From contig JABMRD010000099.1 of NCBI GenBank assembly GCA_013202875.1, positions 1 to 46,088 of the forward strand: 46,088 nucleotides of DNA. Direction: 5' to 3'. Shown here piece after piece: positions 7,766 to 36,353 of the stretch. The first letter of the stretch is position 1, and each line of letters starts with the position of its first letter. A program made the position numbers and the translations under genes. The stretch is from Actinomycetota bacterium. GTDB lineage: Bacteria > Actinomycetota > Humimicrobiia > Humimicrobiales > Humimicrobiaceae. The notes under the pieces were generated by a model. The model made no database searches. It was not told the origin of the DNA and saw only the letters and a list, made by a program, of their open reading frames with translations.

Positions 7766-7772
7766 GAGTTTT

Positions 7773-8765: not shown

Positions 8766-8776
8766 GGAGAATTGAA

Positions 8777-10395: not shown

Positions 10396-10416
10396 AGCTA
10401 TAAAAAAGGGTTTAAA

Positions 10417-12439: not shown

Positions 12440-12442
12440 AAA

Positions 12443-13947: not shown

Positions 13948-14016
13948 GTTTAATGGGTATATAAACCATATTTTTAGTAAACTAAAAAACAGCAGCTTAT
14001 TAGGAAAAATAATGTT

Positions 14017-15825
14017 ATGAAATTATCAGATTATGTAATTAAATTTTTATCTGAACAAAAGATAGGACATATTTTTGTAATAAATGGCGGAGCAGCTGCT
14101 CATTTAATTGATTCAATTGCTAAAAATTTAAAAATTAAATACATATGTACCCAGCATGAACAATCTGCGGCTATGGCGGCTGATGCATATGCGCGGGTTT
14201 CCAATAATTTGGGTGCAGCTATTGCAACATCCGGGCCAGGTGCAACTAATCTAATTACAGGAATATGTTGTGCATATTATGATTCGATTCCTGTAATATA
14301 TATCACTGGACAGGTAGCTACATTCAGGCTGAAGAAAGATTTAAAAGTTAGGCAATTAGGTTTTCAGGAAACCGATATTGTCAGCATGTGCAATTCAATA
14401 ACAAAATATTCTGTTTTGATAACTGACCCAAGGGATATTAGATATGAATTGGAAAAAGCAGTTTATATTGCCAAAACCGGCAGACCTGGCCCGGTACTTA
14501 TAGATATTCCTGATAATATACAAAGAGAAATTATTGAACCTGAGAAGTTAAAAGCATTTTTGCCCATGCTGGTTAAAAAAAACACAAATGGACTGAAAAA
14601 GGATATTGATCGATGCTTAAGGTTAATAAGTAATGCTAAAAGGCCTGTTGTAATATTGGGTGCTGGAGTTAAATTATCCGGTGCTGAAAAATTAGCGGTA
14701 AAATTCATTGAAAAATTAAAATTTCCCGTTTCATTAACATGGGCAGCAATGGATATGTTTCCTAATGATTACTCTCTTCTGGTTGGTGGATTCGGGTTAA
14801 ATGGTCAGAGATATGGGAATTATACAGTTCAGAATTCAGATTTAATTATCTCGATTGGTTCAAGGCTTGATACTCATGCTACAGGCAGCCCATTATCAAG
14901 TTTTGCTCGAGAGGCAAAAAAAATAATAGTAGATATTGATGCATCTGAACTAGAAAAATTCAATAAGTATAAGATGCCGGTTAATATTCTTATAAGGGCC
15001 GATGCTAAGGAATTTCTTGAGCTTATAGTAAATAAAATAAAAGTAATCAATACTCAAAATATTTCAGACTGGATGAAAAGGATCGAGAACTGGAAAGCAA
15101 AATATCAAGTCTGTCCTCATGATTACTTTAGGCAAAAGCAAAAAGTAAACCCCTATGTTTTTTTAGATGTGCTTTCGAAAGAATCAGCTGATGGAGACAT
15201 AATTATTGCAGATACAGGAAATAATTTAGCTCAGGTATTTCAGGGATATAAAGTAAAAAATAAGCAGAAAGTATTCAGCGCTTTTAACAATGCTCCCATG
15301 GGCTATTCTTTACCTGCAAGTATTGGAGCATATTTTTCAAATAAGAAAAAAAATAATAATATAATTTGTATTACCGGAGACGGTGGAATTCAAATGAATA
15401 TCCAGGAACTTGCAACTATTGTTAAGCATAAAATCCCTATAAAGATATTTGTTTTTAATAATAAGGGATACGGTATGATTAAGCAAACTCAGGATGATTG
15501 GCTTAATTCAAGTTATGAAGCTTCCTGTGTTAATAAAGGTGTGGCTATTCCGGATTTTGTAAGTATTGCCAGGGCTTACGGATTAAAAGCACTCTCAATT
15601 AAACATAATTCAGAGCTTAAAAGTAATGTGAGATTTATACTGGATTCTAAAGAACCTGTTCTTTGTAATTTAGAATTAAAATCCGGGCAAAAGAATATAC
15701 CAATGCTAAAATATGGAAGACCCATTGAAGACCAAAACCCGCTTCTGGATAGGGAAGAATTTTTAAAGAATATGATTATAAAACCATTACCGCAGTCATT
15801 AAAGATAGACAATGATTGTAAGTAA
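14017..15825 (+). CDS. Acetolactate-synthase-like TPP-dependent enzyme
   Basis: QHEQSAAMAADAYARV (catalytic Glu), TSGPGATNLITG, C-terminal GDGGIQMNIQELATIVKHKIPIKIFVFNNKGYGMIKQTQ. Confidence 0.9.
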   Translation: MKLSDYVIKFLSEQKIGHIFVINGGAAAHLIDSIAKNLKIKYICTQHEQSAAMAADAYARVSNNLGAAIATSGPGATNLITGICCAYYDSIPVIYITGQVATFRLKKDLKVRQLGFQETDIVSMCNSITKYSVLITDPRDIRYELEKAVYIAKTGRPGPVLIDIPDNIQREIIEPEKLKAFLPMLVKKNTNGLKKDIDRCLRLISNAKRPVVILGAGVKLSGAEKLAVKFIEKLKFPVSLTWAAMDMFPNDYSLLVGGFGLNGQRYGNYTVQNSDLIISIGSRLDTHATGSPLSSFAREAKKIIVDIDASELEKFNKYKMPVNILIRADAKEFLELIVNKIKVINTQNISDWMKRIENWKAKYQVCPHDYFRQKQKVNPYVFLDVLSKESADGDIIIADTGNNLAQVFQGYKVKNKQKVFSAFNNAPMGYSLPASIGAYFSNKKKNNNIICITGDGGIQMNIQELATIVKHKIPIKIFVFNNKGYGMIKQTQDDWLNSSYEASCVNKGVAIPDFVSIARAYGLKALSIKHNSELKSNVRFILDSKEPVLCNLELKSGQKNIPMLKYGRPIEDQNPLLDREEFLKNMIIKPLPQSLKIDNDCK

Positions 15826-15846
15826 ATCATTAGAAAAGATAAAAAG

Positions 15847-16887
15847 GTGTCTATGAAAACAAAAGCAGCAGTACTGTACGAACAAAATCAACCGCTAGTA
15901 ATTGAAGAAATTACTATACCAGAACCCATGGAGGGACAGGTTTTAGTAAAAATAATTGCCTCTGGAATATGTCGAACTCAAATTAATGAAATTAAAGGAG
16001 AAAAAGGTCCTGATAAATTTTTGCCGCACACTATAGGGCATGAAGGAGCTGGTATTGTTCAGAGAGTTGGGAGAAAAGTTAAAAAGGTAAAAGCCGGTGA
16101 TCATGTTGTATTAACATGGATAAAAGGAATCGGCTTGGATATTTCATCTTCAAAATATGAAAATAATAAAGGGGTTGCAATAAACTCCGGTGCAATTTCA
16201 ACTTTTATGGAGTATGCTATTATATCTGAAAATCGACTGGTAGTTATACCTGATGAAATGCCTTTTAATGAAGCTGCTCTTCTTGGTTGTGCTATACCTA
16301 CAGGGGCAGGTATTATTAAAAATAGCATAAATCTAAATAAAGAAAAATCTATTTCTATATTTGGAATTGGCGGAATTGGTGCGAGTGCATTGCTTTATGC
16401 TTCTTCTATCGGGTGTTCAAAAATAATTGCAGTAGATGTTAATGAAAAAAAACTTAAATTTGCAATGGATATAGGTGCTACACAAACAATAAACTCAAAA
16501 ACAGAAAACGTAATTTCAAGAATAAAAGAAATTACAGATAATAATGGCACAGACTATGCAGTTGAATGTTCAGGTAAAAAAGAAGCCATGGAAGCAGCAT
16601 TCGCTTCAATAAATAATAAAGGAACTGCAGTTATAGCAGGTAACTTAAAATATGGTGAGAAAATATCAATAAATCCTTTTGACCTTATTTTAGGTAAGAA
16701 AATAATAGGGACCTGGGGTGGTGAGACAAAACCTGATACAGATATACCACTATATGCAAAAATGTTTTTATCGGGCAGGTTAAAATTGGGTAAACTAATA
16801 ACCCATAAATTTAATCTTGAAGAAATAAATGAGGCAATAAACCTTATCGAAAAAGGTGAGGTAGTAAGAGCTATAATTGAGCTATAA
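15847..16887 (+). CDS. Zinc-type alcohol/sorbitol dehydrogenase (MDR family)
   Basis: GHEGAGIVQRVGRKV; GIGGIGASALLYA; GTDYAVECSG; GTWGGE. Alternative ATG at 15853. Confidence 0.88.
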   Translation: MSMKTKAAVLYEQNQPLVIEEITIPEPMEGQVLVKIIASGICRTQINEIKGEKGPDKFLPHTIGHEGAGIVQRVGRKVKKVKAGDHVVLTWIKGIGLDISSSKYENNKGVAINSGAISTFMEYAIISENRLVVIPDEMPFNEAALLGCAIPTGAGIIKNSINLNKEKSISIFGIGGIGASALLYASSIGCSKIIAVDVNEKKLKFAMDIGATQTINSKTENVISRIKEITDNNGTDYAVECSGKKEAMEAAFASINNKGTAVIAGNLKYGEKISINPFDLILGKKIIGTWGGETKPDTDIPLYAKMFLSGRLKLGKLITHKFNLEEINEAINLIEKGEVVRAIIEL

Positions 16888-18369: not shown

Positions 18370-18933
18370 ATGAAAACAATGAATACTGCCAATAAATATC
18401 CTGCCGTATTTTTAGATAGAGACGGAGTTGTCAATAAAGAAGTAGGATATATTACAAGTATAGAACAGGTGGAAATATATGATTTTGCAATTGAGGCAAT
18501 TAATATGTTTCATAATGCAGGCTGGAAAGTTATTATTATCACAAATCAGTCTGCTGTTGCAAGGGGAATGCTAACAGAAGCTAAACTGTATGAAATTCAC
18601 AAATATTTTATGGATTGTTTAAATGTAGATGATATTTTTTATTGTCCGCATTATCCTCCTATAGATGAGGAAATATACCCGTACAATATTTACTGCAATT
18701 GCAGAAAGCCTGCTCCCGGGATGATAATAGAAGCTGCAAAAAAACATAATATTGATTTAAAAAAATCCTATCTGGTGGGAGAAAGGGGAAGCGATATATT
18801 AACGGGAAAAAATGCACAAGTTTCAACAGTTTTAGTAAAGACAGGTTACGGAAGCGATTGGCTAGATAACAAAATAAAGCCTGACTATGTTTTTGAAAAT
18901 TTAAAGGAATTTGCATTATTTCTTTTTACATAG
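18370..18933 (+). CDS. gmhB: HAD-family GmhB-like heptose bisphosphate phosphatase
   Basis: FLDRDGVVNKEVGYI; ITNQSAVARGM; CPHYPP...CNCRKPAPGMI (zinc loop); VGERGSDI. Confidence 0.85.
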   Translation: MKTMNTANKYPAVFLDRDGVVNKEVGYITSIEQVEIYDFAIEAINMFHNAGWKVIIITNQSAVARGMLTEAKLYEIHKYFMDCLNVDDIFYCPHYPPIDEEIYPYNIYCNCRKPAPGMIIEAAKKHNIDLKKSYLVGERGSDILTGKNAQVSTVLVKTGYGSDWLDNKIKPDYVFENLKEFALFLFT

Positions 18934-19017: not shown

Positions 19018-20406
19018 TTAAGTCTGCCTAAATCCTCGAAAAGATATATTACGCTTGATATACAAATTATATAACTGCTCATCAATTAAAATTCTTTTTT
19101 TATCATGGTAGTTTTGTAAAAGTATTTTATTAGCTTCCATTAGCGCTTCATAAAATTCATCATCTGTCATATTAGTAAAATTTACTGATAATAAATCTGA
19201 ATTTACATGTTTGTTTTCATAAAAATCTTCAACATCTTTCAATAAACCTCTCTCTATTGCATAATAATATAGTGCTGAACCCGGGTATGGTGTTACAGGT
19301 CTTATTGTACGCATCTGAGCCGCATCATCATATTTTAGTAAAAAATCTACTCCCTTCATAAGTGTTTCCTTTGTTTCTCCAATGTTTCCAAAAATTATAT
19401 TAAATCCTGGGCTTATTTGACTAGCCAGAGTAGCTTCTATTCCTTTTTTTATCTGATCCGTTGTGAGGCATTTGTTCATTTTTTTTAAAACTCTGTCATC
19501 ATAAGCTTCAATACCATAATTTATAAAAACACATCCTGCTTTTTTCATTATTTTCAATACTTCCGGTTTAGCATAATTCAGTCTACCGCTACAATCCCAT
19601 TTGATATTTAATTTGGCTTTTATTATATCTTCACATAAACCAATAATTCTTTGTTCTGAGGACATCAATAGTTCATCTGAAAAATTAATATAAGAAATTG
19701 AATACCGATTAATTAAATATTTTATTTCTTCAATTATTGCCTCATTACTTCTTGCTCTAAATCCCTGATCCATCCTGTAGCAAAAATTACATTTAAATTT
19801 ACATCCTCGACCTGATAAAACAGGCATTACAAAATCTTTATTTGTGCTGTGAGTCCATCTTATAAGACGGTAATATTGAATTGGGAATAATTCATATGCA
19901 GGCCAAGGAATCGAATCTATATCCTTTATTAAATCTCTTCTCTCATTTATTACTACTTTATCCCCATCTTTATAAGCGATACCCTTAATAGAAGATAAAC
20001 TTTTTCTATTACCTAAAGCATTTAACAACTCTATAATTGTCTCCTCACCTTCCCCTATTACGACTACGTCTGCTTCTGTCTTATTAAGGAAATATTCAGG
20101 CTCAGGAGAAGGTCCGTGACCGCCAAGAATAAAAAATGGCCTATGCTTAGACTTATTTATCGCATCTGAAATTTTTAAAGCTTTTCTATACTGATAATAG
20201 CCTCCAATAAAACTTAACCCAACTATGTCAAAAATATTTGAATTAAGATATTGTGTCAAATGCTCATCTGGGTAATGGTTTAAATCCTGATTATATATTG
20301 TTACTTCAAAATTATTCTTTAGAAGAACAGAAGATATATATGCTAATCCCTGAGGAAATGTATGAATATAAGAATCATTATCGTATACTATTAGGAGAAT
20401 TCTCAT
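19018..20406 (-). CDS. B12-binding-domain radical SAM protein
   Basis: N-terminal B12-binding-like region (FDIVGLSFIGGYYQYRKA, FILGGHGPSPEPE); GRGCKFKCNFCYR CxxxCxxC cluster motif. Confidence 0.85.
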   Translation of the reverse strand: MRILLIVYDNDSYIHTFPQGLAYISSVLLKNNFEVTIYNQDLNHYPDEHLTQYLNSNIFDIVGLSFIGGYYQYRKALKISDAINKSKHRPFFILGGHGPSPEPEYFLNKTEADVVVIGEGEETIIELLNALGNRKSLSSIKGIAYKDGDKVVINERRDLIKDIDSIPWPAYELFPIQYYRLIRWTHSTNKDFVMPVLSGRGCKFKCNFCYRMDQGFRARSNEAIIEEIKYLINRYSISYINFSDELLMSSEQRIIGLCEDIIKAKLNIKWDCSGRLNYAKPEVLKIMKKAGCVFINYGIEAYDDRVLKKMNKCLTTDQIKKGIEATLASQISPGFNIIFGNIGETKETLMKGVDFLLKYDDAAQMRTIRPVTPYPGSALYYYAIERGLLKDVEDFYENKHVNSDLLSVNFTNMTDDEFYEALMEANKILLQNYHDKKRILIDEQLYNLYIKRNISFRGFRQT

Positions 20407-20434: not shown

Positions 20435-21277
20435 TTAAATATTATTTTTGGTATCAGCCAAATCAAATCCGGTTGGTACGCCCCAATAATGACAAAAAGA
20501 ACAAAGGGGAACTTTATTTCTTTGACCTAAAATGTGATAATTTTTCCATTCCAATCTTTTTTTGTCATTCCAAATTTCTAAAAGAGCCCTGTCATTTATA
20601 TTGCCAATTACTCCTAACTTTTTAGGATCAAGTCTGACACATATTGAAACATCCCCGTTTTTATTAATTGCAAGATGATTTAAAAAATCAAGACATATAC
20701 CTATTTCCGGTATAGTAGGTTTTAATTTTTTATAATTAAAGCTGCCAAGAGGTGAATGCAGAACTCTTCTTATAATTAAAATGTTTAGTTCTTTATATTT
20801 TTTATCATCAACCTCTCCAATAAGCCTTAGAGATGTAAAAGGCTTTTTACTGCCTTTTATTTTAAGAAATTTCTCAATAATCCGATATTGTTCTTTAGAT
20901 TCCTCATCATTTTCAAATACTGAAATAGATAATGTATCTAACTTATCAATTATCTCATCAGCTTTCTGAACTAAAAGTTTACCATTAGTAACAATATTGG
21001 TTATGTTTTTTTTAAATAAATCTAAGGCTTTTCCAAAATAAGGATAAAGAAGAGGCTCACCATTATTATGAAGCTGAACTACAATACCGGGCGGAACCTG
21101 CTCAGATATTTTCTTTACTAACTCAAAATCCATATCTCCGTATTTTAATGCAAGTTCAGGATATTCTCTGTCAATTTTCCTTCTTCCGCACATCCAGCAA
21201 TTTTTATTGCACCTATTTGTTAGCTCGATGTTTATGTTAATTAAACCAAAAACGTTATTATCCATAGTTATAACCAT
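20435..21277 (-). CDS. Radical SAM protein with SPASM-type C-terminus
   Basis: NIELTNRCNKNCWMCGRRK; C-terminal Cys-rich GICLDFLNHLAINKNGDVSICVR...VPLCSFCHYWG. Confidence 0.83.
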   Translation of the reverse strand: MVITMDNNVFGLININIELTNRCNKNCWMCGRRKIDREYPELALKYGDMDFELVKKISEQVPPGIVVQLHNNGEPLLYPYFGKALDLFKKNITNIVTNGKLLVQKADEIIDKLDTLSISVFENDEESKEQYRIIEKFLKIKGSKKPFTSLRLIGEVDDKKYKELNILIIRRVLHSPLGSFNYKKLKPTIPEIGICLDFLNHLAINKNGDVSICVRLDPKKLGVIGNINDRALLEIWNDKKRLEWKNYHILGQRNKVPLCSFCHYWGVPTGFDLADTKNNI

Positions 21278-21939
21278 TATTCTTTATAGCCAACCCCAAC
21301 TATCATTAATTCTCTTGACCACCTTAAAAATTTATTTTTTGTTCTTACAGAAATAAAAGGTGAAATAAGAGAACAAAATATATTTATCCATTTATGTTTC
21401 CAAACAAAAGGAAGTTGTCTAAATTTTTCTGCGCCTACATCTTTAAATTGGTACATTTTATAAATATCTTTTAAAGCAAACACTGTAAATGGTGTTCTGT
21501 GTGTGTAATCATCAAAATAAATTTTATAATTTGCTTCCCAATCGGGAACTAGCGTAATCAATATTCCACCTTTTTTTAGGACTCTGTATGCTTCTGAAAA
21601 AAATTTTTCAGGGTGATACAAATGCTCGATAAATGATTTTGAATATATTACATCAAAATAATTATCAGAAAATGGAATTCCATCCTTTTCAATATCTGCA
21701 ATTTTTATATTACAATCTTTAATAATTATTTTTGATTCTTCAGATATGTCTATTCCAAATACTTCCAATCCAAGCTTTTTAAACTCTATTAAAAAATCTC
21801 CTCTTCCGCATCCAGGTTCAAGAAATGTCTGCCCTTTTTTTAAATGAAACCTATCAAAAAGGTATTTTACTAAATGTTGAGGATAATCAGTCTTTGGTCT
21901 TTCAGATTCGTTATATATAGTACGAATATAGTTGTTCAT
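21277..21939 (-). CDS. Class I SAM-dependent methyltransferase
   Basis: TFLEPGCGRGDFLIEF; GIDISEES; FDVIYSKSFIEHLYHPEKFFSEAYRVLKKGG. Confidence 0.86.
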   Translation of the reverse strand: MNNYIRTIYNESERPKTDYPQHLVKYLFDRFHLKKGQTFLEPGCGRGDFLIEFKKLGLEVFGIDISEESKIIIKDCNIKIADIEKDGIPFSDNYFDVIYSKSFIEHLYHPEKFFSEAYRVLKKGGILITLVPDWEANYKIYFDDYTHRTPFTVFALKDIYKMYQFKDVGAEKFRQLPFVWKHKWINIFCSLISPFISVRTKNKFLRWSRELMIVGVGYKE

Positions 21940-22058: not shown

Positions 22059-22883
22059 TTATTTTCTTGCCAAGACGATATATTCACCTAAAACCTGTTT
22101 TTCATTATCTGACCATCTATTAAAAATATTTACATTTTTAAATTTATTTATTCTCAATAATTCCTTTATTATATTTTTGCTATAAGGTTTTAATATATTG
22201 CAAAAATATGATTTATTTTTATTCTTTCTTTCTATAAAAGTTTTTTCCCACACAATATTTTTTTGTTTATCAAGAGTAATATTATATAATCCATATTTAA
22301 AAGGGTCGCTTTTAGGAAATTGTTCCCATATTTTAAGTTCTTTATTTTCTGCTAAATTTATTAATTTAAGGATATTTATAAAATCCCATAATTCAATAAG
22401 AAAATACCCTCCTTTTTTTAACATTTTATATATTTTTTTTAGTAATAAGCTCTCAGCATTTCTTTTCAAAGGTGATATTAATTGTAATACAATATCAACA
22501 GCAATAATCAAATCTAATTCTTTGTGAACCAAATTAGAGGATAAGAAATCTTCATTATAATTAACTACTTTTTTTGAATTCACATAGTCTTTAAGCTTCT
22601 CGGCAAAATTAAACCTAGATTTACTAATTTCATAACCATATCCTCCATTAGTAATTAAATTTTCTTTTTCTAATCTATAAAGTAATTTACTATTTCCAGA
22701 CCCAATTTCTAATACTCTTCCATTCCATTGATTATTAATAATATATTTATTTATAAAATTTATGTGTTTAGTACAGCCACTAAGTTTTTTATTACAATAA
22801 TTTATAAAGCTATTTTCATTAAACCTATCTAAATTTTCTACATCGTCATAAGCTGTTAAATTAATATGCTTTATTTCAATCAT
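22059..22883 (-). CDS. SAM-dependent methyltransferase
   Basis: GRVLEIGSGNSKLLYRLE; LDLIIAVDIVLQL; LKKGGYFLIELWDF. Confidence 0.75.
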   Translation of the reverse strand: MIEIKHINLTAYDDVENLDRFNENSFINYCNKKLSGCTKHINFINKYIINNQWNGRVLEIGSGNSKLLYRLEKENLITNGGYGYEISKSRFNFAEKLKDYVNSKKVVNYNEDFLSSNLVHKELDLIIAVDIVLQLISPLKRNAESLLLKKIYKMLKKGGYFLIELWDFINILKLINLAENKELKIWEQFPKSDPFKYGLYNITLDKQKNIVWEKTFIERKNKNKSYFCNILKPYSKNIIKELLRINKFKNVNIFNRWSDNEKQVLGEYIVLARK

Positions 22884-23320
22884 TTTATTATTTCTTCAAC
22901 AATTTCAATTAATATACCGTCTGGATCATGAGCATATAATACTTTTACTTTTCCATCTGATGAAATTAATGGTTCACTGTTACAGAAAAGATTTCTTTTT
23001 AATAATTCTTCGTATACTTCATTAATATCCTTTACTTTAAAAGCAATATGTAAGCTGCTAAGTATATTTGGCTTTGATATAACATGAGAACTTAAGTCAC
23101 TCTGAACAATATATTCAATTAATTCCAGTATGTTGCTATTATTATCTGTTAATTTAGCCCACTCAACCTCTGCTCCATCTATTCCGGTAAGTTTTTCGAT
23201 ATATTTTCCTTTTTCAATCCTTCTGTTAACCAATTGAAAATTAAAAACTTGTTCATAAAATTTAATAGATTGTTCAAGATTTTTTACTACTAATCCAATA
23301 TGTCTAATTATGCCCTCCAT
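22880..23320 (-). CDS. VOC/glyoxalase-superfamily protein
   Basis: IRHIGLVVKNLEQSIKFYEQVFNFQ; SSLHIAFKVKDINEVYEEL; YAHDPDGILIEIVE. Confidence 0.85.
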   Translation of the reverse strand: MEGIIRHIGLVVKNLEQSIKFYEQVFNFQLVNRRIEKGKYIEKLTGIDGAEVEWAKLTDNNSNILELIEYIVQSDLSSHVISKPNILSSLHIAFKVKDINEVYEELLKRNLFCNSEPLISSDGKVKVLYAHDPDGILIEIVEEIIK

Positions 23321-23323
23321 TTA

Positions 23324-24709
23324 TTAATTACAACCTTCTATTGCTTCATATATTGACGATTCTAGTACCTCAAGTCCTTCAAGCATTGCTTCTTTATTAA
23401 TTACTAAGGGCGGTGCTAGTTTAATAGACTCTCTACCTGTATGTACTACGAGAAGCCCTTTTTGCATTGCATTTTCACAAATTCTATTGCATAAGCTGCT
23501 CAGCGGATTACCAAATTTGTCCATAAATATTAATGCTGCTACTAGACCTCTACCGGTTTCATATGCAATATAATCAGAGTATTTATTTTTTATTCTTTTT
23601 AATTCTTTATGGAAAATAACTCCCAATTCTTTCGAATTCTTAATTAAACCGTCATTTAATAATACCTCTAAATTTGCTTTACCTGCTGCGCAGACTAATG
23701 GGTTTGCAGAATGAGTAGAGCTCATTGAACCAATTTCAGGCAAATCCATTAACTCACTTCTTCCCAATACAATTGCTAAAGGAAAACCTGAACTTGCACC
23801 TTTTCCCAGTGCAAGCATATCAGGTTCAACATCATAATGCATATAGCCAAAAAGCTTTCCTGTTCTTCCAAAGCCAGCTTGCATTTCATCAAAAGTAACT
23901 AAAATATCAAATCTTTTAGCAAATTCAACAATTGACTTTACAAATTGTTCAGGATAAAAAATAGCACCCCACCCTTGAAATGTTTCTAAAATAAAACCGC
24001 AAATATCAGTTTCAGGATTTATCTTCTTCTCCAGTAAGAGTTTTTCCATATTTAAGTTGAAGTAATATGAAGGATTTTCAATAGCTTCTTTTCTCCACGG
24101 ATATGGAAAAGGTAAATGATAAATATTTGGGTCAAGATATCCTATCCATTCTTTTTGAACAGGATTATAACTCATCATCTGTGCTCCAAGAGTTCTTCCG
24201 TGCCAATTTCCTTCAAAAGCAATAATCCCGGGTTTCTTCTTACCCTTTTTATTTCCATACATTCTAATTAATTTTAAACAAGCTTCTATTGCTTCAGTCC
24301 CCGCTGATACTAAATAAGCTTTTTCAAATTGCTTAGGGGTATTTTCTATTAAATACATAAGATATTCTGCTCGTTCCTCTGATGCATAAGTGTATGTATT
24401 TAGAAGTGGCTTATTTATAAGATTTCTGATTGAATCAATAATCTTTTTATTTGAATGACCTGCATTTGCAACAAATATTGTGCTCGTAAAATCAATCCAA
24501 ACATTACCCCATTTATCGTAAACTTGAAATCCTACAGCTTTATCCCATACAACAGGCAATTGACCATGCATTGATACAGACTCATACTTATCAAGTTTTT
24601 GAAATATTTCAATACTTTTAGGAACAGGCAACTTTGTAACAATTTTTCTATATTTAGTATCAATTTTCGGAACATCTTTAGGCTCCATATTAAATTTAAA
24701 CCCGGACAT
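23324..24709 (-). CDS. Class-III PLP-dependent aminotransferase
   Basis: SAGTEAIEACLKLIR; TFDEMQAGFGRTGKLFGY; LALGKGASSGFPLAIVLG (PLP lysine). Confidence 0.9.
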   Translation of the reverse strand: MSGFKFNMEPKDVPKIDTKYRKIVTKLPVPKSIEIFQKLDKYESVSMHGQLPVVWDKAVGFQVYDKWGNVWIDFTSTIFVANAGHSNKKIIDSIRNLINKPLLNTYTYASEERAEYLMYLIENTPKQFEKAYLVSAGTEAIEACLKLIRMYGNKKGKKKPGIIAFEGNWHGRTLGAQMMSYNPVQKEWIGYLDPNIYHLPFPYPWRKEAIENPSYYFNLNMEKLLLEKKINPETDICGFILETFQGWGAIFYPEQFVKSIVEFAKRFDILVTFDEMQAGFGRTGKLFGYMHYDVEPDMLALGKGASSGFPLAIVLGRSELMDLPEIGSMSSTHSANPLVCAAGKANLEVLLNDGLIKNSKELGVIFHKELKRIKNKYSDYIAYETGRGLVAALIFMDKFGNPLSSLCNRICENAMQKGLLVVHTGRESIKLAPPLVINKEAMLEGLEVLESSIYEAIEGCN

Positions 24710-24714
24710 ATAGT

Positions 24715-25455
24715 TTAATCCTTAAAATTCTGTTTTAAATATTCTAATATCCTATAATTCTTTTTTTTTAGTTCATATTCTAAAATCTCAAACTCTTCAA
24801 ATGTATCAACTTCAATGCAAAAAGGAGAGATGTAACCTATCATTTTTTCGCCATGAATTAAACCTGTTTGCTGAATAAACGAAGTTTTAAGAACATCAAC
24901 ATATCCATCTGGAATATAAACATCAGGAAATTCCTGCCTTGGTGCATTTAGCTGCTCATTAGATAAATTACTCACCATGCCTTTAAAGTAACCATTAATA
25001 TCCAGTATGAACCATTTAAATGGAGATTCAGATACCTTATGTGCAGACCTTAAACAATCAGCAGTATTATTTATTAGAATCCTTTTTATTGCATCATCTA
25101 TAACATCTGCATCTCTTAATGGCGTAGTCGGTCTTAAATGAACCCAATATTCAGGCGAAATACCTTCATTTTTTATAAACCAATCAATAGCATGAATCAT
25201 AAAATCACTATCTTTTGAATTATCTTTAGCTATCGATGAAGGCCTTAAAAAAGGCACTTCTGCTCCATATTTTAAAGCTATTTCTGCAATTTCTTCTGAA
25301 TCAGTAGAAACTATAATTCTTTCAATTAAACTAGAGAGCTTAGCAGCAATAATAGAATATGCTATTAAAGGATAACCGCCTAAATATTTTATATTTTTTT
25401 TGGGGATTCCTTTTGATCCTCCTCTGGCAGGAATAATTGCATAAATACTTTTCAT
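24715..25455 (-). CDS. neuA: CMP-sialate-synthase-like cytidylyltransferase
   Basis: IIPARGGSKGIPKKNIKYLGGYPLIAYSI; VSTDSEEIAEIA; LRPTTPLRD. Confidence 0.88.
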   Translation of the reverse strand: MKSIYAIIPARGGSKGIPKKNIKYLGGYPLIAYSIIAAKLSSLIERIIVSTDSEEIAEIALKYGAEVPFLRPSSIAKDNSKDSDFMIHAIDWFIKNEGISPEYWVHLRPTTPLRDADVIDDAIKRILINNTADCLRSAHKVSESPFKWFILDINGYFKGMVSNLSNEQLNAPRQEFPDVYIPDGYVDVLKTSFIQQTGLIHGEKMIGYISPFCIEVDTFEEFEILEYELKKKNYRILEYLKQNFKD

Positions 25456-25492
25456 ATATTTTAAAAATTATTAATTTTCTTAAATTACAATA

Positions 25493-26341
25493 TCATTCAT
25501 TTGCTTCTATTTTTATATGTGCCCGCAATTTTTTTGCAATAGGAATTTCCTTTTCAATTATGCCTATTTTACCATCACCCATTGCTTTCTCAATTTTTCT
25601 AATAGCTCCTACAAGCTGTCTCAGCCCCATAGGCTCTACTGATGCAGGTTGGTCTGATCCATACATGGATCTATCTAAAGTGATATGTCTTTCCAAAGAT
25701 GTTATACCTAAAGCTGCAGCAGCATAAGATACAGCAAGACCTGTTTCATGGCCACTGTAACCTATATTACATTTATATCTATCTCTTAAGGTTATAATGC
25801 AATTTAAGTTTGCATCTTCATCTTCCATCGGATAAGTTGATACACAATGCATGAGTTCAAAAGGACAATTAGCTTTTTTAAAGATATCAACTGCTATATC
25901 AATATCTACTATATTAGACATACCGGTTGAAATAAATGTATGCTTGCCCTCTGAAGCTACCTCTTTCAAAAACGCAATATCTACAATCATAGCTGAAGCA
26001 ATTTTATTGTATTTTAAATTAAATTGTCTTAGAAATCTTTTACTTTCAATATCCCATGCTGATGCAAACCATTCTATGCCGATTTCTTTACAGTATCTAT
26101 CAATTTCTTTATATTGGTCTATATTGAATTCTAATCCTAGCTTTTGTTGGCGCTGCGTTGTTCCCCAGGGACTCTCACGAGGGGAGTCAAGGAGTTCTTT
26201 TGAATAAATAAGTTCAACTGTTCTTTTTTGAAATTTTACTGCGTCACATCCTGCGTCTTTTGCAACATTAATTAGGTTCTTTGCTATATCTATATCTCCA
26301 TTATGATTAATTCCAATTTCCGTTATGATATAAATTTTCAT
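25493..26341 (-). CDS. NeuB-family PEP-condensing synthase, short form without SAF domain
   Basis: ITEIGINHNGDIDIAKNLINVAKDAGCDAVKFQKR; IGYSGHETGLAVSYAAAALGITSLERHITLDR; ends at 282 aa. Confidence 0.88.
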   Translation of the reverse strand: MKIYIITEIGINHNGDIDIAKNLINVAKDAGCDAVKFQKRTVELIYSKELLDSPRESPWGTTQRQQKLGLEFNIDQYKEIDRYCKEIGIEWFASAWDIESKRFLRQFNLKYNKIASAMIVDIAFLKEVASEGKHTFISTGMSNIVDIDIAVDIFKKANCPFELMHCVSTYPMEDEDANLNCIITLRDRYKCNIGYSGHETGLAVSYAAAALGITSLERHITLDRSMYGSDQPASVEPMGLRQLVGAIRKIEKAMGDGKIGIIEKEIPIAKKLRAHIKIEANE

Positions 26342-26342
26342 T

Positions 26343-26933
26343 TTAATTTACCTCCTTGGCAAATAGTCTTTTTTCAACAAATTCACAAATAATATGAAAT
26401 ATTAAAATATGCATTTCCTGTATTCGAGGTGTAAGTTTTGAGGGGACACATAAACAATAATCTGAAATATCCTTTAATTTATTTATTTCATTATTACCGG
26501 TAAAACCTATAGTTATCATTTTTAATTCTTTAGCAGTTTCAATAGCTCTTATGATATTTTTCGAATTTCCGGTAGTTGAAATTGCAATTAATATGTCATC
26601 TTTCTTACCTTTTGCCTCGATTTGCCTGGAAAAAACTTTGTCAAAATCGTAATCATTAGAAATAGCTGTCAAACTGGATGTATTTACAGTCAGTGCTTCT
26701 GCATTTAAAGCTTTTCTTTCAATTAAAAATCTATTTACAAACTCGGCAGCTATATGTTGAGCATCGGCTGCACTACCTCCATTTCCGCATATAAGAACTT
26801 TTTTATCTTGTTTAAAACAATCATGAATTAAATTAATAACTTCTATAATTTGATCAATTAGGAAGCTATTATTTAAAATAACATCAATTAAATTCTTATG
26901 TTCAACTAATAATTTTTTTGTATCATTTTTCAT
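26343..26933 (-). CDS. gmhA: Sedoheptulose-7-phosphate isomerase-like SIS protein
   Basis: VLICGNGGSAADAQHIAAEFVNRF; DILIAISTTGNSKNII; VPSKLTPRIQEMHI. Confidence 0.88.
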   Translation of the reverse strand: MKNDTKKLLVEHKNLIDVILNNSFLIDQIIEVINLIHDCFKQDKKVLICGNGGSAADAQHIAAEFVNRFLIERKALNAEALTVNTSSLTAISNDYDFDKVFSRQIEAKGKKDDILIAISTTGNSKNIIRAIETAKELKMITIGFTGNNEINKLKDISDYCLCVPSKLTPRIQEMHILIFHIICEFVEKRLFAKEVN

Positions 26934-29495: not shown

Positions 29496-30488
29496 ATGAA
29501 CCTATCAGGGAAAACAATACTTATAACCGGAGGCACTGGTTCTTTTGGTAAAAAATTTACAGAGATTGTGCTAAAAAAATATAACCCTAAAAAACTTATT
29601 ATTTTCAGCAGGGATGAATACAAACAAAGCGAAATGGCAAAGATATTTTCCAAAGATAGATATCCGAGTATCAGATATTTTTTAGGTGACGTAAGGGATA
29701 AATACAGACTATTTCATGCTTTTGAAGAGGTTGATTACGTAATACATGCTGCAGCATTAAAACAAGTACCTGCTTTAGAATATAATCCTATGGAGGCTGT
29801 AAAAACTAATGTGCTTGGTGCAGATAATATAATTGATGCAGCAATAGATGCGGGAGTAAAAAAAGTAATTGCCCTTTCTACTGATAAAGCAGTAAATCCT
29901 GTAAATCTTTATGGTGCCACCAAGCTTGTTGCAGAAAAAATATTTATTGCGGCAAATGCCTACGCAGGAGGCAAAGTTAAGTTTTCTGTAGTAAGATATG
30001 GCAATGTGGTTGGCTCTAGAGGTAGTGTTGTACCATTATTTTTAAACCTTAAGAAAAAAGGTATAAAAGAGTACCCCATAACTGATGTTGAAATGACACG
30101 TTTCTGGATAACTCTTGAACAAGGGGTAGAATTTGTACTGAAAGCATTAGAGGAATCAGTCGGAGGGGAGATTTTTGTTCCTAAAATACCTTCGATGAAA
30201 GTTATTGATCTTGCAAAAGCATTAGAGCCTGATTGTAAAATAAAATTAATTGGTATTAGGCCTGGAGAAAAAATTAATGAGGTAATGATTTCTGAGGAAG
30301 AAGCGAGAAATACAAAAATTTTTAATGGGGCCTATACTATTTTGCCTTCATTTTTTGAGAGTAAGGATCTCTATGAAAAGTATAAAAAATGTTCTTCTGT
30401 CCCTGAGGGCTTTATTTATCGCAGCGATAAAAACGATATGTGGTTAACGCTGGATGAATTAAAAGATATGGTTAAAAATATAGAATAA
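29496..30488 (+). CDS. pseB: UDP-GlcNAc 4,6-dehydratase (inverting)
   Basis: TGGTGSFGKKFTEIVLKKYNPKKLIIFSRDEYKQSEM; AALKQVPALEYNPMEAVKTNVLGA; STDKAVNPVNLYGATKL. Confidence 0.95.
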   Translation: MNLSGKTILITGGTGSFGKKFTEIVLKKYNPKKLIIFSRDEYKQSEMAKIFSKDRYPSIRYFLGDVRDKYRLFHAFEEVDYVIHAAALKQVPALEYNPMEAVKTNVLGADNIIDAAIDAGVKKVIALSTDKAVNPVNLYGATKLVAEKIFIAANAYAGGKVKFSVVRYGNVVGSRGSVVPLFLNLKKKGIKEYPITDVEMTRFWITLEQGVEFVLKALEESVGGEIFVPKIPSMKVIDLAKALEPDCKIKLIGIRPGEKINEVMISEEEARNTKIFNGAYTILPSFFESKDLYEKYKKCSSVPEGFIYRSDKNDMWLTLDELKDMVKNIE

Positions 30489-30588
30489 TGGAAGGGCAAT
30501 AGAGATTAAGGTATAGTATTTAAATAAAAGAGTTTATTAGAAATAGCATGAATTAATAAATATATTAAAATTGTAATTTTATTAACTT

Positions 30589-31743
30589 ATGAAAATTATC
30601 CCTTATGGCCGACAGTGGGTTGACGCAAGCGATATCAGAGAAGTTATTAAGGTATTAAAATCTGATTGGCTTACCCAGGGTCCGAAAATAAAAGAATTTG
30701 AAGATGCTCTCTGTAAATACACAGGAGCTAAATATGCTGTAGCAGTATCTAGTGGAACAGCTGCTTTACACATTGCATGTCTTGCTGCAGGCATAAAGAG
30801 TGGAGATGAGGTCATAACATCTCCCATAACTTTTGTAGCTTCAGCAAACTCTATATTATATTGTGGTGGAACCCCTGTTTTTGCAGATATACAAAAGGAT
30901 ACAGTAAATATTGACCCTGAGGAAATAAGGAAAAAAATTAGCCCAAATACCAAAGCTATAATACCAGTTCATTTTGCTGGTCATCCTTGTGATTTAGAAG
31001 AAATATCACTAATTGCACAAAAACATAATTTATTAGTCATAGAAGATGCTGCCCATGCCTTAGGTGCGGAGTATAAAAATACAAAAATTGGCTCCTGTAA
31101 ATATTCAGATATGGCTATTTTTAGTTTCCACCCGGTTAAATCTATAACTACAGGCGAAGGTGGTACTATATTAACTAACAATGAAGAAATTTTTAAAAAA
31201 CTTTTGATTTTTAGAAATCATGGTATTGCAAAAGAAAAAGCAGAACTTATGAATAAGAATGAAGGCCCTTGGTTTTATGAAATGCAGGAGCTTGGATTTA
31301 ACTACCGTATCACTGATATCCAAGCTACCTTGGGGATTTCACAGTTGAAAAAAATAAATTCATTTATAAGTGATCGAAGAGAAATTGCAAAATTTTATAA
31401 TAAATCATTTAAGGGTAATAATTATTTTGATATACCTGTGGAAAGAGAATATGTCTTTTCAGCATACCATCTTTATCCAATAAGAGTTAAGGACAAGTTC
31501 AAAGTACAAAAAAAAGAGATATTTAATAAAATGAGAGATAGCGGGCTTGGAATACAAGTACATTATATACCAGTTTATTTACAACCATTTTATAAAAAAC
31601 TTGGGTATAAGATAAAAATATGCCCAAAAGCAGAAGATTTTTATGAAAAAGAAATCAGTATTCCAATGTACCCCTCTTTAAAAGACACCCAGATTAAATT
31701 TGTTGTAAAGGAAATATTAAAGATATTTAAAAATTATGAATAA
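30589..31743 (+). CDS. pseC: UDP-4-amino-4,6-dideoxy sugar transaminase (DegT/DnrJ/EryC1)
   Basis: IPYGRQWVDASDIREVIKVLKSDWLTQGP; VSSGTAALHIA; HPVKSITTGEGG. Confidence 0.94.
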   Translation: MKIIPYGRQWVDASDIREVIKVLKSDWLTQGPKIKEFEDALCKYTGAKYAVAVSSGTAALHIACLAAGIKSGDEVITSPITFVASANSILYCGGTPVFADIQKDTVNIDPEEIRKKISPNTKAIIPVHFAGHPCDLEEISLIAQKHNLLVIEDAAHALGAEYKNTKIGSCKYSDMAIFSFHPVKSITTGEGGTILTNNEEIFKKLLIFRNHGIAKEKAELMNKNEGPWFYEMQELGFNYRITDIQATLGISQLKKINSFISDRREIAKFYNKSFKGNNYFDIPVEREYVFSAYHLYPIRVKDKFKVQKKEIFNKMRDSGLGIQVHYIPVYLQPFYKKLGYKIKICPKAEDFYEKEISIPMYPSLKDTQIKFVVKEILKIFKNYE

Positions 31744-32596
31744 AATTGCTTTAGGCACAGCACAATTTGGCATTGATTATGGAATAAATAACAAAAGGGG
31801 TAAAATACCTAAAAAAGAGGTCTATGATATATTAAACAAAGCCAAAGAGTTTGAAATTGATACTATTGATACTGCTTATGATTATGGGGAAAGTGAGAAA
31901 GTTATTGGAAGTTTTTTAAAGATCACAAACTATAAATTCAAAATAATTTCTAAATTACCAGGTTGTAAAAATAATGAAGTAAAAAAAATATTCGAATCTT
32001 CTTTAAACAATCTTGGTTTATCCATGATTTATGGATATTTAATTCATAGTTTTGAAAGCTATAAAAAGGATAAGAGAATTTGGAAAGAAATTGAAAAATT
32101 AAAAAAAGATGGAAAAATAGAAAAAATTGGGTTTTCTTTGTACTATCCACAAGAACTAAAATACTTATTTGAAAAAAAAGTTGATATTGATATGATCCAA
32201 ATCCCTTATTCGATATTTGACCAGAGATTCAATACATTTTTAATAGAGTTAAAACAAAGGAATATTGAAGTATATACGCGTTCGGTTTTTTTACAGGGCT
32301 TGGTATTTAAAAAATTGGATGAATTGGACCAAAGATTTTTAAAAATAAAGTCGAAAATAAGTTTTTTATTTAATCTATCAAAAGAATTAAATTTACCAAT
32401 TTCAATAATATGTTTAGGGTTTGTGTTGCTAAACAATGATGTAGATAAAGTAATTATAGGAGTCGATAGGAAAAAAAATTTAATCGAAAACATACTGCAA
32501 CTAAACTATATTAGCAGCATAATTCCTTTTTATGGAAAATTAAAAGAACTTAAAGAAGATGATGAAAATATATTACTACCAATGAACTGGAAATGA
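31736..32596 (+). CDS. Aldo/keto reductase
   Basis: LGTAQFGIDYGINNKRGKIP; IDTIDTAYDYGESEKVIG; YSIFDQRF. Confidence 0.88.
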   Translation: MNKIALGTAQFGIDYGINNKRGKIPKKEVYDILNKAKEFEIDTIDTAYDYGESEKVIGSFLKITNYKFKIISKLPGCKNNEVKKIFESSLNNLGLSMIYGYLIHSFESYKKDKRIWKEIEKLKKDGKIEKIGFSLYYPQELKYLFEKKVDIDMIQIPYSIFDQRFNTFLIELKQRNIEVYTRSVFLQGLVFKKLDELDQRFLKIKSKISFLFNLSKELNLPISIICLGFVLLNNDVDKVIIGVDRKKNLIENILQLNYISSIIPFYGKLKELKEDDENILLPMNWK

Positions 32597-33348
32597 AAAT
32601 ATTAGGAATAATACAAGCGAGGATGTCTTCTACAAGATTACCAGGTAAAGTCCTTTTAGACTTGGAGGGAAAATGTGTGCTTGAACATGTTATTAATAGG
32701 GTTAATTCAGCTAAAATGATTGATGATGTCATTGTAGCGACCACTATAAAAAAAGAGGATCTGCAAATTTTAAAAATTTGTAATAGTATTGGAATTAAAG
32801 TTTTTTGTGGATCCGAAGAAAATGTTTTAGACCGCTATTATCAGGCAGCAAAATTATTTAATCCAGAGCATATTGTGAGAATAACTAGCGATTGTCCCAT
32901 GATTGACCCAAAAGTTATTGATAAAGTAATAAACTTACACCTAAAAGAGAAAGCGGACTATACTACCAATGTTATTACTGAAACATTCCCCGATGGTGAA
33001 GATGTTGAGATTTTTACATTTGAAACATTAAATAAAGCCTGGCGAAATGCAAAACTTTTATCAGAGCGAGAACATGTTACCCCATATATTAAAAAACATC
33101 CAAAAATCTTTAAAATAAGGAATTTGGAAAATGATAAAAATTTATCAAATAAAAGATGGACACTTGATAATCCTGAAGATTATGAGTTTATAAAGGTAAT
33201 TTATAAAAATCTTTATGTTAAAAACCATTTATTTGGAGTTGAAGAAATATTGGATTTTCTTAATAGAAATCCTGATGTAGAAAGAATTAATGAGCATATA
33301 AAAAGAAATGAGGGATATTTAAAATCACTAAAGAATGATAAGGTGTAA
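32593..33348 (+). CDS. pseF: SpsF/PseF-type cytidylyltransferase
   Basis: IIQARMSSTRLPGKVLLDLEGKCVLEHVINRV; CGSEENVLDRYYQAA; RITSDCPMIDP. Confidence 0.85.
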   Translation: MKILGIIQARMSSTRLPGKVLLDLEGKCVLEHVINRVNSAKMIDDVIVATTIKKEDLQILKICNSIGIKVFCGSEENVLDRYYQAAKLFNPEHIVRITSDCPMIDPKVIDKVINLHLKEKADYTTNVITETFPDGEDVEIFTFETLNKAWRNAKLLSEREHVTPYIKKHPKIFKIRNLENDKNLSNKRWTLDNPEDYEFIKVIYKNLYVKNHLFGVEEILDFLNRNPDVERINEHIKRNEGYLKSLKNDKV

Positions 33349-33355
33349 AAAATAT

Positions 33356-34672
33356 ATGGAGATGAATAAAGGGCAACGACTTTATAAACTGGCAAAAAAA
33401 TTAATTCCTGGTGGGACACAACTCTTATCAAAAAGGCCAGAGATGTTTCTACCAGAACTATGGCCAGCATATTATAAAAAAGCAAAAGGATGTGAAATCT
33501 GGGATTTAAATGATAAAAAATATACTGATATGAGTTATATGGGTATTGGTTCATGTATTTTGGGATATACTGATGAAGATGTAGATCAAGCTGTTATAAA
33601 AGTGATAAAAGAAGGAACTATGTCGACCCTGAATGCACCGGAAGAAGTTGAATTAGCGAAATTACTTATAAAATTACATCCATGGGCACAGATGGTAAGA
33701 TATGCAAGGACTGGTGGCGAGGCAATGGCGATTGCAGTAAGGATAGCAAGAGCTAAATCAAAAAAAGATTTAATACTGTTTTGTGGATATCACGGCTGGC
33801 ATGATTGGTATTTATCAGCGAATCTTGCTGATGATAAGGCACTTAATGGACATTTGTTACACGGGCTCAGTCCATTAGGTGTTCCAAGATCTTTAAAAGG
33901 CAGCTCCTTTCCTTTTCAGTATAATGATATTGAGAGTTTTTTAAAACTTATTCATAAATATAAAAATGAAATAGGAGTTATAGTTCTTGAATCAATAAGA
34001 AATGTTTATCCAATAAAAGAATTTTTTGAGACAATCAGCAATGAAGCAAAAAAAATAAATGCGGTAGTAATTGTTGATGAAGTTAGTGCTGGTTTTCGTC
34101 TAAATTTAGGTGGTGCACATTTGCTGTTTGGCTTGGAACCTGACATTGCAGTATTTGCTAAAGGTATGAGCAATGGTTACCCAATGGCGGCTATAATTGG
34201 GAAAAAAGAAGTTATGAAAGTTGCTCAGGATACCTTTATAAGTAGTACTTACTGGACTGAAAGAATAGGTCCTGCAGCAGCATTGACTACAATAAAAAAA
34301 TTAATAGAAAAAAACGTTCCAAAACATATAGGGGACATTGGTAGAAAGGTACAAGAAGGATGGAGGCTACTAGCAAATAAAAATAATATTAATATTGAGA
34401 TTTCTGGCATACCTCCCTTAGGACATTTTTCTTTTAAATACGATAATCCTCTGATTATAAAAACTTTGTTTACTCAACTAATGCTAGAAAAAAAATTTCT
34501 TGCTTCAACAGCTTTCTATGCATCGTATGCACATAAAGACCAACATGTGAAAAAATATTTAGAAGCAACAGATGAAACATTTAATTTTATTTCAAGAGCA
34601 ATTAAAGAAAAATGCCCCGAAAAATATTTAAAGGGTTCTATATGTCATTCAGGATTTCAAAGACTTACATAA
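33356..34672 (+). CDS. Glutamate-1-semialdehyde-type class-III aminotransferase
   Basis: ARTGGEAMAIAVRIARA; CGYHGWHDWYL; VDEVSAGFRLNLGG; FAKGMSNGYPMAAIIG. ATG at 33356 preferred. Confidence 0.88.
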   Translation: MEMNKGQRLYKLAKKLIPGGTQLLSKRPEMFLPELWPAYYKKAKGCEIWDLNDKKYTDMSYMGIGSCILGYTDEDVDQAVIKVIKEGTMSTLNAPEEVELAKLLIKLHPWAQMVRYARTGGEAMAIAVRIARAKSKKDLILFCGYHGWHDWYLSANLADDKALNGHLLHGLSPLGVPRSLKGSSFPFQYNDIESFLKLIHKYKNEIGVIVLESIRNVYPIKEFFETISNEAKKINAVVIVDEVSAGFRLNLGGAHLLFGLEPDIAVFAKGMSNGYPMAAIIGKKEVMKVAQDTFISSTYWTERIGPAAALTTIKKLIEKNVPKHIGDIGRKVQEGWRLLANKNNINIEISGIPPLGHFSFKYDNPLIIKTLFTQLMLEKKFLASTAFYASYAHKDQHVKKYLEATDETFNFISRAIKEKCPEKYLKGSICHSGFQRLT

Positions 34673-34712
34673 AATATGTTATTGATTGTATATTAGTAGG
34701 GATTATTAATAA

Positions 34713-35696
34713 ATGAATATTTTGATATTAACAGAAGGCGGGGAAAAAATAGGTTTTGGGCATATAACAAGATGTGTTGCTCTTTATGAAGCTTTTGAGG
34801 AAAAAGGCATTAACCCTGAATTATTAGTAAATAGAGACAGTGATATATTAAATTTATTAAGACATAAGAATTTTCAAAGATTTGACTGGATCAAAGATGA
34901 TAAGAGATTGTTTGAAATAATTAAAAATTCAAATTTTGTTGTCATTGATTCATATTTAGCAGAAAAATCCCTATATGATAAAATTTCTGAAATGACTGAT
35001 GGTAAAATGCTTATGATAGATGATTATAATCGAATAGATTATCCGAAAGGTATTGTAGTAAATCCCTCTATTTATGGGGATAAATTAGACTATTTAAGAA
35101 AAAGTGACGCCATTTATTTATTAGGGAAAGATTATATTATTTTGCGGAAGGAATTTTGGAATATACTTAAAAAGAAGATAAATAAGGAAATAAAAGATGT
35201 GTTAGTTACTTTTGGTGGAATGACGAATCATAATATCTTTAATGAAATAGATGAGTTTATTAAAAAGAAATCTTATTTTAATTTTAATGTAATTAATACA
35301 AAGAACAATAAATTATCTGCAATAGAAATGTTAGATTTCATGTTAAAAGCAGACGTTTGTATTTCAGGTGGGGGTCAGACCACTTATGAATTAGCTAGAG
35401 TTGGTGTTCCGACAATTGGGATTTGCCTAGCAGAAAACCAATTGGGAAATCTTATTGGTTTAGAAAAAGTTGGATTTTTAAAATTTGCTGGCTGGTTTAG
35501 TGATAATGATTTATTTCAAAAAATAAAAGAAAACTTTAATAAATTAGACTATAACACCAGGTTAAAAATGTCTAAAGCATCAAAGAAATATATTGATGGC
35601 CAAGGTGTAAAAAGGATACTAAAAAAGATTTTAGAAAAAATAGGAAACTATAAAAATGGAGTTATTAAAGATGAAAATACTTTTCTTAGGAGATGA
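34713..35696 (+). CDS. pseG: UDP-2,4-diacetamido-2,4,6-trideoxy-altropyranose hydrolase-like
   Basis: GFGHITRCVALYEAFEEKGI; IDDYNRIDYPKGIVVNPSIYG; SGGGQTTYELARVGVPTIGICLAENQ. Confidence 0.9.
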   Translation: MNILILTEGGEKIGFGHITRCVALYEAFEEKGINPELLVNRDSDILNLLRHKNFQRFDWIKDDKRLFEIIKNSNFVVIDSYLAEKSLYDKISEMTDGKMLMIDDYNRIDYPKGIVVNPSIYGDKLDYLRKSDAIYLLGKDYIILRKEFWNILKKKINKEIKDVLVTFGGMTNHNIFNEIDEFIKKKSYFNFNVINTKNNKLSAIEMLDFMLKADVCISGGGQTTYELARVGVPTIGICLAENQLGNLIGLEKVGFLKFAGWFSDNDLFQKIKENFNKLDYNTRLKMSKASKKYIDGQGVKRILKKILEKIGNYKNGVIKDENTFLRR

Positions 35697-36252: not shown

Positions 36253-36353
36253 AATTATAATACTAAAGAATTTAGATTAAAAAAAGAAGGTTAATTGAAA
36301 TATTTTATCTCTTAAAAAGGAAAATATAATTTTTATGGGGATAATAAATAAAA

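Follow-up and report, generated by a model that had tools for sequence, protein, structure and literature searches.

The KDN-9-P synthases of Bacteroides thetaiotaomicron and Prymnesium parvum act on Man-6-P (PMC6200933), and human NANS produces Neu5Ac-9-P as well as KDN-9-P (PMC9000132). KDN occurs in Streptomyces walls (PMC11481543). One reported Leptospira synthase has a phosphatase-like domain fused at its C-terminus (PMC3438082), thus the solved Leptospira chain, 6ncs, may be a fragment. Literature searches found nothing on a gmhA-neuB cassette, nor on deculosonic acids in such a setting. The cassette analyzed here looks undescribed and widely shared among bacteria, and its product looks like an unusual surface sugar akin to sialic acid.

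The window, i.e. the whole stretch of 46,088 nt that was analyzed, displays a minus-strand run of five tightly spaced ORFs, all with ATG starts. The first encodes a GmhA-type SIS sugar-phosphate isomerase (positions 26343–26933, SIS_2/GmhA family). It is followed by a NeuB-family synthase that is similar to KDN-9-P synthases (25493–26341), a NeuA/PseF-like CMP-ulosonate transferase (CMPT; 24715–25455; CTP_transf_3, PF02348), a class-III PLP aminotransferase (23324–24709; Aminotran_3, PF00202, 279.5 bits) and a VOC protein of the glyoxalase/epimerase fold, a candidate epimerase (22880–23320; Glyoxalase, PF00903). The gaps between them are 1, 37, 5 and 3 nt. An earlier, sequence-only reading had named these five packed genes and their families, and the ORFs, coordinates and family matches agree with it. 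That reading closed the unit at 22880–26933, however the same-strand genes continue. A methyltransferase (22059–22883, Methyltransf_31) overlaps the VOC gene by 4 nt, and beyond it are a second methyltransferase, MT2 (21277–21939, Methyltransf_11), a radical SAM/SPASM protein (20435–21277; PF04055 and PF13186) and, as the final gene of the run, a B12-binding radical SAM protein (19018–20406; PF02310 and PF04055). The operon therefore probably extends past the VOC gene, down to position 19018. Upstream, on the opposite strand, is a Pse-type cluster (29496–37394) with a full-length PseI (535.8 bits, cut-off 340.25). The window thus encodes two synthases, its own PseI and the short NeuB.

The short NeuB has a chain length of 282 aa and displays the PF03102 barrel alone, with no SAF domain by Pfam. 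It scores 247.6 bits against the NeuB equivalog TIGR03569 (curated cut-off 399.65) and 186.4 bits against the PseI equivalog TIGR03586 (cut-off 340.25). An alignment-based AlphaFold model predicts a complete NeuB barrel (pLDDT 93.9), and the best-ranking PDB fold matches are 6ncs, NmNeuB and PseI. As the sequence-only reading had argued, the small intergenic gaps leave no room for a missing SAF domain beside neuB. Relatives of the short NeuB (59–79% identity, 52 loci in many phyla) all terminate at the identical domain boundary and thus form a SAF-less clade; loss or displacement of the domain at this locus is ruled out. The lack of SAF had been regarded as unusual. It is real, but it is not peculiar to this locus and is the rule across the widespread clade and its actinomycete and Bacteroidota relatives.

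In a phylogenetic tree the short NeuB and the KDN-9-P-type synthases, which adjoin a KDN-9-P phosphatase, form one branch with a support of 100/98. This branch leaves out NmNeuB, PseI, SpsE, 6ncs and the window's own PseI. The references were NeuNAc, Pse and SpsE synthases, 6ncs, and KDN-type synthases that had been assigned from neighboring family models, not by assay. The sequence-only reading depended on the enzyme falling outside the characterized sialic and legionaminic clades; it is not inside the sialic or pseudaminic synthases tested, the tree containing no characterized LegI. The motif QKR...(S/T)P-x-G-x-T is common to the short NeuB, where it reads QKR/S-P-W-G-x-T, and the KDN-type synthases. 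This segment was not found in the four solved enzymes NmNeuB, PseI, SpsE and 6ncs. Membership in a Neu or Pse pathway is ruled out by the cut-offs, the tree and the separate PseI. The short NeuB groups with none of the NeuNAc, Pse and SpsE synthases that were tested and is a distinct SAF-less type.

A HAD phosphatase similar to KdsC and KDN-9-P phosphatase adjoins 11 of 11 NeuB loci of this type versus 0 of 7 canonical loci (p = 3e-5; sample of 20 unselected NeuB loci), although the loci share ancestry, so that p-values here exaggerate independence. Within the short clade a KdsC-like HAD is near 27 of 52 loci. It sits between SIS and NeuB, or is fused to SIS or to CMPT; in L019 and L020 the SIS-HAD fusion is immediately upstream of neuB. 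Nonomuraea has a CMPT-HAD-NeuB fusion, and in L036 VOC is fused to CMPT. These fusions link the parts into one pathway. Plasmid NeuBs bearing the motif adjoin a phosphatase of a different family. Many relatives have the KdsC/KDN-9-P-type HAD, but none was found in the whole host genome (best score 25.7 bits), nor was a HAD seen in any radical-SAM-type locus among the 52 surveyed. A GmhB-like HAD on the plus strand, opposite to the cassette (18370–18933; 151.2 bits, cut-off 178), is a candidate substitute. The grouping with KDN-9-P-type synthases and the KdsC-like HAD of relatives point to an aldose phosphate as the probable acceptor. A non-hexosamine acceptor had been proposed from the sequence alone; a free N-acetylhexosamine is indeed improbable, and the proposal is now sharpened.

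The five-gene linkage, on which the sequence-only reading also relied, recurs elsewhere. L061 has SIS, NeuB, CMPT, class-III aminotransferase and VOC uninterrupted; in L019, L020, L047 and L054 all five are likewise present, along with an insertion or fusion of one or two pathway genes. Among close relatives from the host family, whose contigs are too short for whole cassettes, gmhA adjoins neuB in L122 and a HAD adjoins NeuB in L123. The SIS protein scores 205.5 bits against GmhA TIGR00441, just under the curated cut-off of 209.45. In 25 of the 52 relatives it adjoins the pathway or forms a fusion with it, and it is missing from about half of the loci. The CMPT scores 136.8 bits against the PseF model (cut-off 205.7); a NeuA-type CMPT is present at 41/52 loci. 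The closest solved proteins to the aminotransferase are an alanine/serine racemase and GABA/acetylornithine transaminases, and at other loci a class-IV enzyme takes its place. VOC and the class-III enzyme co-occur (p = 3.6e-11, 52 loci). L070 carries a 49% relative of the methyltransferase that overlaps VOC, and MT2 is found in 14/52 loci, each time with VOC. The radical SAM/SPASM gene (13/52) is never alongside a TIM-barrel isomerase or a local HAD; the B12-binding radical SAM gene is in 9/52.

It is fairly likely that the cassette is, in its condensation, dephosphorylation and CMP-activation steps, a phosphorylated-acceptor ulosonate pathway. The GmhA-type SIS would convert a ketose phosphate to a manno-configured aldose phosphate, with sedoheptulose-7-P to D-glycero-D-manno-heptose-7-P as the best guess. 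The SAF-less NeuB would then condense this with PEP to an ulosonate phosphate. What is established for this step is the enzyme family, the fold and the conservation of catalytic residues, and a phosphorylated acceptor is well supported by comparison with related proteins. A phosphatase, the KdsC-like HAD in relatives, would strip the phosphate. The aminotransferase and VOC protein, together with the methyltransferases and radical SAM proteins, may modify the chain; the roles given to the aminotransferase, to VOC and to the radical SAM proteins are putative. Judging from its family and setting, the NeuA-like enzyme would activate the sugar with CMP for use in a surface glycan. The product is probably a CMP-activated 3-deoxy-2-ulosonic acid bearing an amino group, made by KDN-9-phosphate logic. 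That no KdsC-like HAD was found in the host genome is the weak point of this reading; the loci that lack SIS and the radical-SAM-type loci that lack the HAD also count against it. Heptose is the leading guess for the acceptor, a tentative one. Slightly more tentative is the full sequence of events in which GmhA makes the heptose-7-P and NeuB joins it with PEP, giving a C10 3-deoxy-dec-2-ulosonic acid that is aminated and CMP-activated.

The main rival, which is quite possible, is that the product is ordinary KDN or a modified KDN, with Man-6-P as the NeuB substrate and the SIS enzyme either supplying it from fructose-6-P or being incidental. The nearest functional group in the tree is of the KDN-9-P type, and the B. 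thetaiotaomicron and P. parvum KDN-9-P synthases take Man-6-P; besides the Streptomyces wall KDN, the host's phylum contains sister-type NeuBs that come with a CMPT-HAD fusion. However Man-6-P requires no dedicated isomerase, a SIS gene is near 0/18 sister-clade loci versus 25/52 here (flank sizes differ), and the SIS protein keeps the H/E/Q/H active-site residues of Burkholderia and Campylobacter GmhA. These residues also speak for an unlikelier explanation, that gmhA serves an NDP-heptose pathway as a mere neighbor of an independent NeuB, since this SIS is the only GmhA of the host genome with the full set. The window does have a heptose-type cluster (HldE-like at 5655, GmhA-like at 7184, GmhB-like at 18370). 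Yet SIS is 1 nt from neuB, SIS-HAD fusions lie directly upstream of neuB in relatives, and HldE-like genes are near only 2/52 loci and GmhB-like genes near 0/52, a count that excludes HddA-type kinases.

The NeuB product could also serve as a plain alpha-keto acid, with a class III/IV aminotransferase or a TPP enzyme acting at C2, so that a polyhydroxy amino acid or decarboxylated sugar arises and not a CMP-ulosonate. Two kinds of alpha-keto-acid enzyme recur next to short neuB: aminotransferases of class IV (branched-chain/D-amino-acid type) and TPP enzymes similar to acetolactate synthase. This reading is improbable, given how frequent CMPT is and that the NeuA family requires a C2 hemiketal; the TPP enzyme is never together with CMPT (p = 1.8e-4), thus the TPP variant may be a separate pathway. 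An animal-like Neu5Ac-9-P synthase acting on ManNAc-6-P follows the identical phosphorylated-acceptor logic, as in NANS, but is about as improbable, with neither a UDP-GlcNAc 2-epimerase nor a ManNAc kinase family recurrent among the loci and the SIS enzyme left unexplained.

The phosphorylated-acceptor reading points to a large uncharacterized NeuB branch that probably uses such acceptors without SAF and spans cultured cyanobacteria, Azospirillum and many uncultured phyla. With the searchable motif and the phosphatase linkage, annotators could avoid labeling short NeuBs as sialic acid synthases. A heptose acceptor would mean that bacteria produce ten-carbon relatives of sialic acids, one carbon longer than these.

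The short NeuB shares the PF03102 barrel and the conserved catalytic core with the NeuB, PseI and SpsE synthases, but is without SAF, outside their branch, below the curated NeuB and PseI cut-offs, and has the phosphate-type motif. Leptospira 6ncs, a 290-residue chain solved without SAF, is the best PDB match by sequence (33% identity) and fold; however it is without the QKR/GxT segment and outside the KDN-type branch. The Kdo pathway (KdsD-KdsA-KdsC-KdsB) follows the same logic, i.e. a SIS-fold isomerase, condensation of PEP with an aldose phosphate, a KdsC-type HAD and a CMP-transferase, although KdsA belongs to another family with a fold only distantly like that of the short NeuB, and the cassette SIS is GmhA-type and not KdsD-type. 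The KDN-9-phosphate pathway differs in having synthases with SAF (L090 and L091, 344–345 aa) and in having no dedicated SIS, aminotransferase or VOC, but it shares with the cassette type the synthase branch, the QKR/GxT motif, the KdsC-type HAD and the CMP-transferase.

The five-gene cassette at 22880–26933 is real and conserved, and has to date been classed under general family names only. All five open reading frames are on the minus strand as placed by the sequence-only reading, with intergenic gaps of 1, 37, 5 and 3 nt, and Pfam/NCBIfam searches bear out its family assignments, i.e. SIS/GmhA (26343–26933), NeuB without a SAF domain (25493–26341), a CTP_transf_3 cytidylyltransferase (CMP-transferase), a class-III aminotransferase and a VOC protein. 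The VOC gene overlaps a methyltransferase gene by 4 nt; next come genes for another methyltransferase and for two radical SAM proteins, first one with a SPASM domain and then a B12-binding one. The unit probably extends past VOC to position 19018, and these downstream genes matter because several are also kept in relatives.

The window is a portion of a surface-polysaccharide region in a 1.9-Mb draft genome. The host probably belongs to Actinomycetota, as a genome from its phylum matches Nonomuraea at 79% identity across 1.4 kb. On the other strand, a Pse-type cluster at 29496–37394 (+) encodes PseB, PseC, a PseG-like protein and PseI, the last full-length and scoring over its cut-off. The window thus has two distinct synthases, this PseI and the short NeuB. 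In this cluster a formyltransferase (35656–36252), a GSA-type class-III aminotransferase and an aldo-keto reductase replace the usual acetyltransferase; the product is possibly an N-formyl derivative. An IS481 family transposase is located downstream at 40554–41594 (+). A single run at 5655–16887 (+) displays an HldE-like fusion, an altered GmhA-like protein, and dehydratase/epimerase, PDH-E1 alpha/beta-like, SDR, acetolactate-synthase-like and alcohol dehydrogenase genes, and its product may be a branched or extended heptose.

Scanning a single genome from each species gave 55 loci, of which 52 encode a relative of the short NeuB (59–79% identity). These are found in Elusimicrobiota, Omnitrophota, Thermodesulfobacteriota, Pseudomonadota, Lentisphaerota, Cyanobacteriota, Bacillota and other phyla. 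All 52 terminate at about the same position, directly after a K-L-R type motif; thus SAF absence is a trait of the clade, and truncation is ruled out as its cause. The AlphaFold model of the short NeuB (33 sequences) is confident (pLDDT 93.9, pTM 0.89), with 6ncs (a Leptospira synthase), NmNeuB and PseI as best fold matches.

In a tree of 76 proteins, one branch (100/98) holds the short NeuBs, relatives from Azospirillum, Methylomagnum and Hymenobacter, SAF-less Bacteroidota enzymes and KDN-type synthases, the references for which (L090, L091, L092) were assigned by an adjoining HAD phosphatase above the curated KDN-9-P-phosphatase cut-off and not by assay. NmNeuB, CjPseI, SpsE, 6ncs and the window's PseI are outside, in an order that is unsure because of long branches, and the bootstrap is not fully settled. 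A QKR plus (S/T)-P-x-G-x-T segment is common to the branch, in looser form in the Bacteroidota rows, and is absent from four solved non-KDN enzymes. Human NANS, which uses ManNAc-6-P, has a similar segment, a lead only.

A KdsC-like HAD phosphatase is near 27 of the 52 short neuB genes. It may be a separate gene between SIS and NeuB (e.g. L054), or fused to SIS (L019, L020) or to the CMP-transferase (L033, L037, L038, L045, L046, L048, L061). In Nonomuraea gerenzanensis (L098, 6636–8828) a 730-residue reading frame joins CMP-transferase, KdsC-like HAD and NeuB. Twenty loci with a NeuB-family gene were sampled from the host's phylum regardless of the query; 11 score 293–313 bits with the short-clade profile and all 11 have an adjoining KdsC-like HAD, fused to the CMP-transferase in 10, whereas none of the seven canonical loci (67–166 bits) has one (Fisher p = 3e-5, with the intermediate loci L114 and L116 excluded). 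On Enterobacter and E. coli plasmids (L124, 2927–5837; L125, 2921–5831), an inositol-monophosphatase-family gene and a CMP-transferase gene accompany a SAF-less NeuB with the short-clade motif; the phosphatase-family gene is directly beside it. This NeuB carries a fused N-terminal domain that matches nothing in Pfam. That a second, unrelated phosphatase family takes the HAD's position adds weight to a phosphorylated product. No KdsC-like HAD was found anywhere in the host genome; a GmhB-like HAD at 18370–18933 (+) is a candidate for the role, and redundant phosphatases are reported for the dephosphorylation step (PMC6200933).

Linkage of the five genes is kept elsewhere: they are contiguous in L061, and in L019, L020, L047 and L054 all five are present, with inserted or fused genes. 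An SIS gene lies close to neuB at 25 of the 52 loci vs. 0 of 18 sister-clade loci, the flanks being wider for the former. Other neighbors are the CMP-transferase (41/52), class-III aminotransferase (21), VOC (22), class-IV aminotransferase (10), a TIM-barrel isomerase/epimerase (21) and radical SAM/SPASM (13). Class-III aminotransferase and VOC co-occur (p = 3.6e-11), while radical SAM/SPASM shares no locus with the TIM barrel (p = 6e-4) or with the KdsC-like HAD (p = 8e-6), although these p-values overstate independence because common descent and transfer link the loci. The mutual exclusion of radical SAM/SPASM and TIM-barrel proteins suggests alternative routes to a similar step. Most radical-SAM-type loci have no local SIS or HAD, and many of those genomes encode both elsewhere. 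A CMP-transferase–VOC fusion in L036 places VOC in the same pathway. In five loci (L044, L055, L057, L063, L067) the gene after short neuB encodes an acetolactate-synthase-like TPP enzyme; three of them have a KdsC-like HAD and none has NeuA nearby, a possible second use of the synthase. In L044 (7206–9977) an intein with a LAGLIDADG domain splits a DegT-family aminotransferase.

GmhA active-site residues are intact in the 26343 protein and changed in the copy at 7184–7765 (+), beside the HldE-like gene (E to D and Q to E by alignment). The GmhA product shares the manno configuration with ManNAc and Man-6-P, known acceptors of the NeuB family. HldE- and GmhB-like genes are rare near the 52 short neuB genes (HddA was outside the search). 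With the SIS linkage, these properties make heptose-7-P an attractive candidate acceptor. A ten-carbon product of the cassette is possible, though less likely than not. Man-6-P is also a possible acceptor: it is the substrate of characterised KDN-9-P synthases (PMC6200933), and KDN is present in Streptomyces walls (PMC11481543). In Serratia marcescens, production of sialic acid, mainly KDN, requires a neuB with an extra isomerase/epimerase domain (PMC9000132).

The aminotransferase, VOC protein, methyltransferases and radical SAM proteins have putative roles in the pathway. In one model of tailoring, the ulosonate would undergo oxidation-transamination, the step by which Kdo8N is made in Shewanella. 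The cassette is best read as a previously undescribed form of KDN-9-P/Kdo-type pathway.
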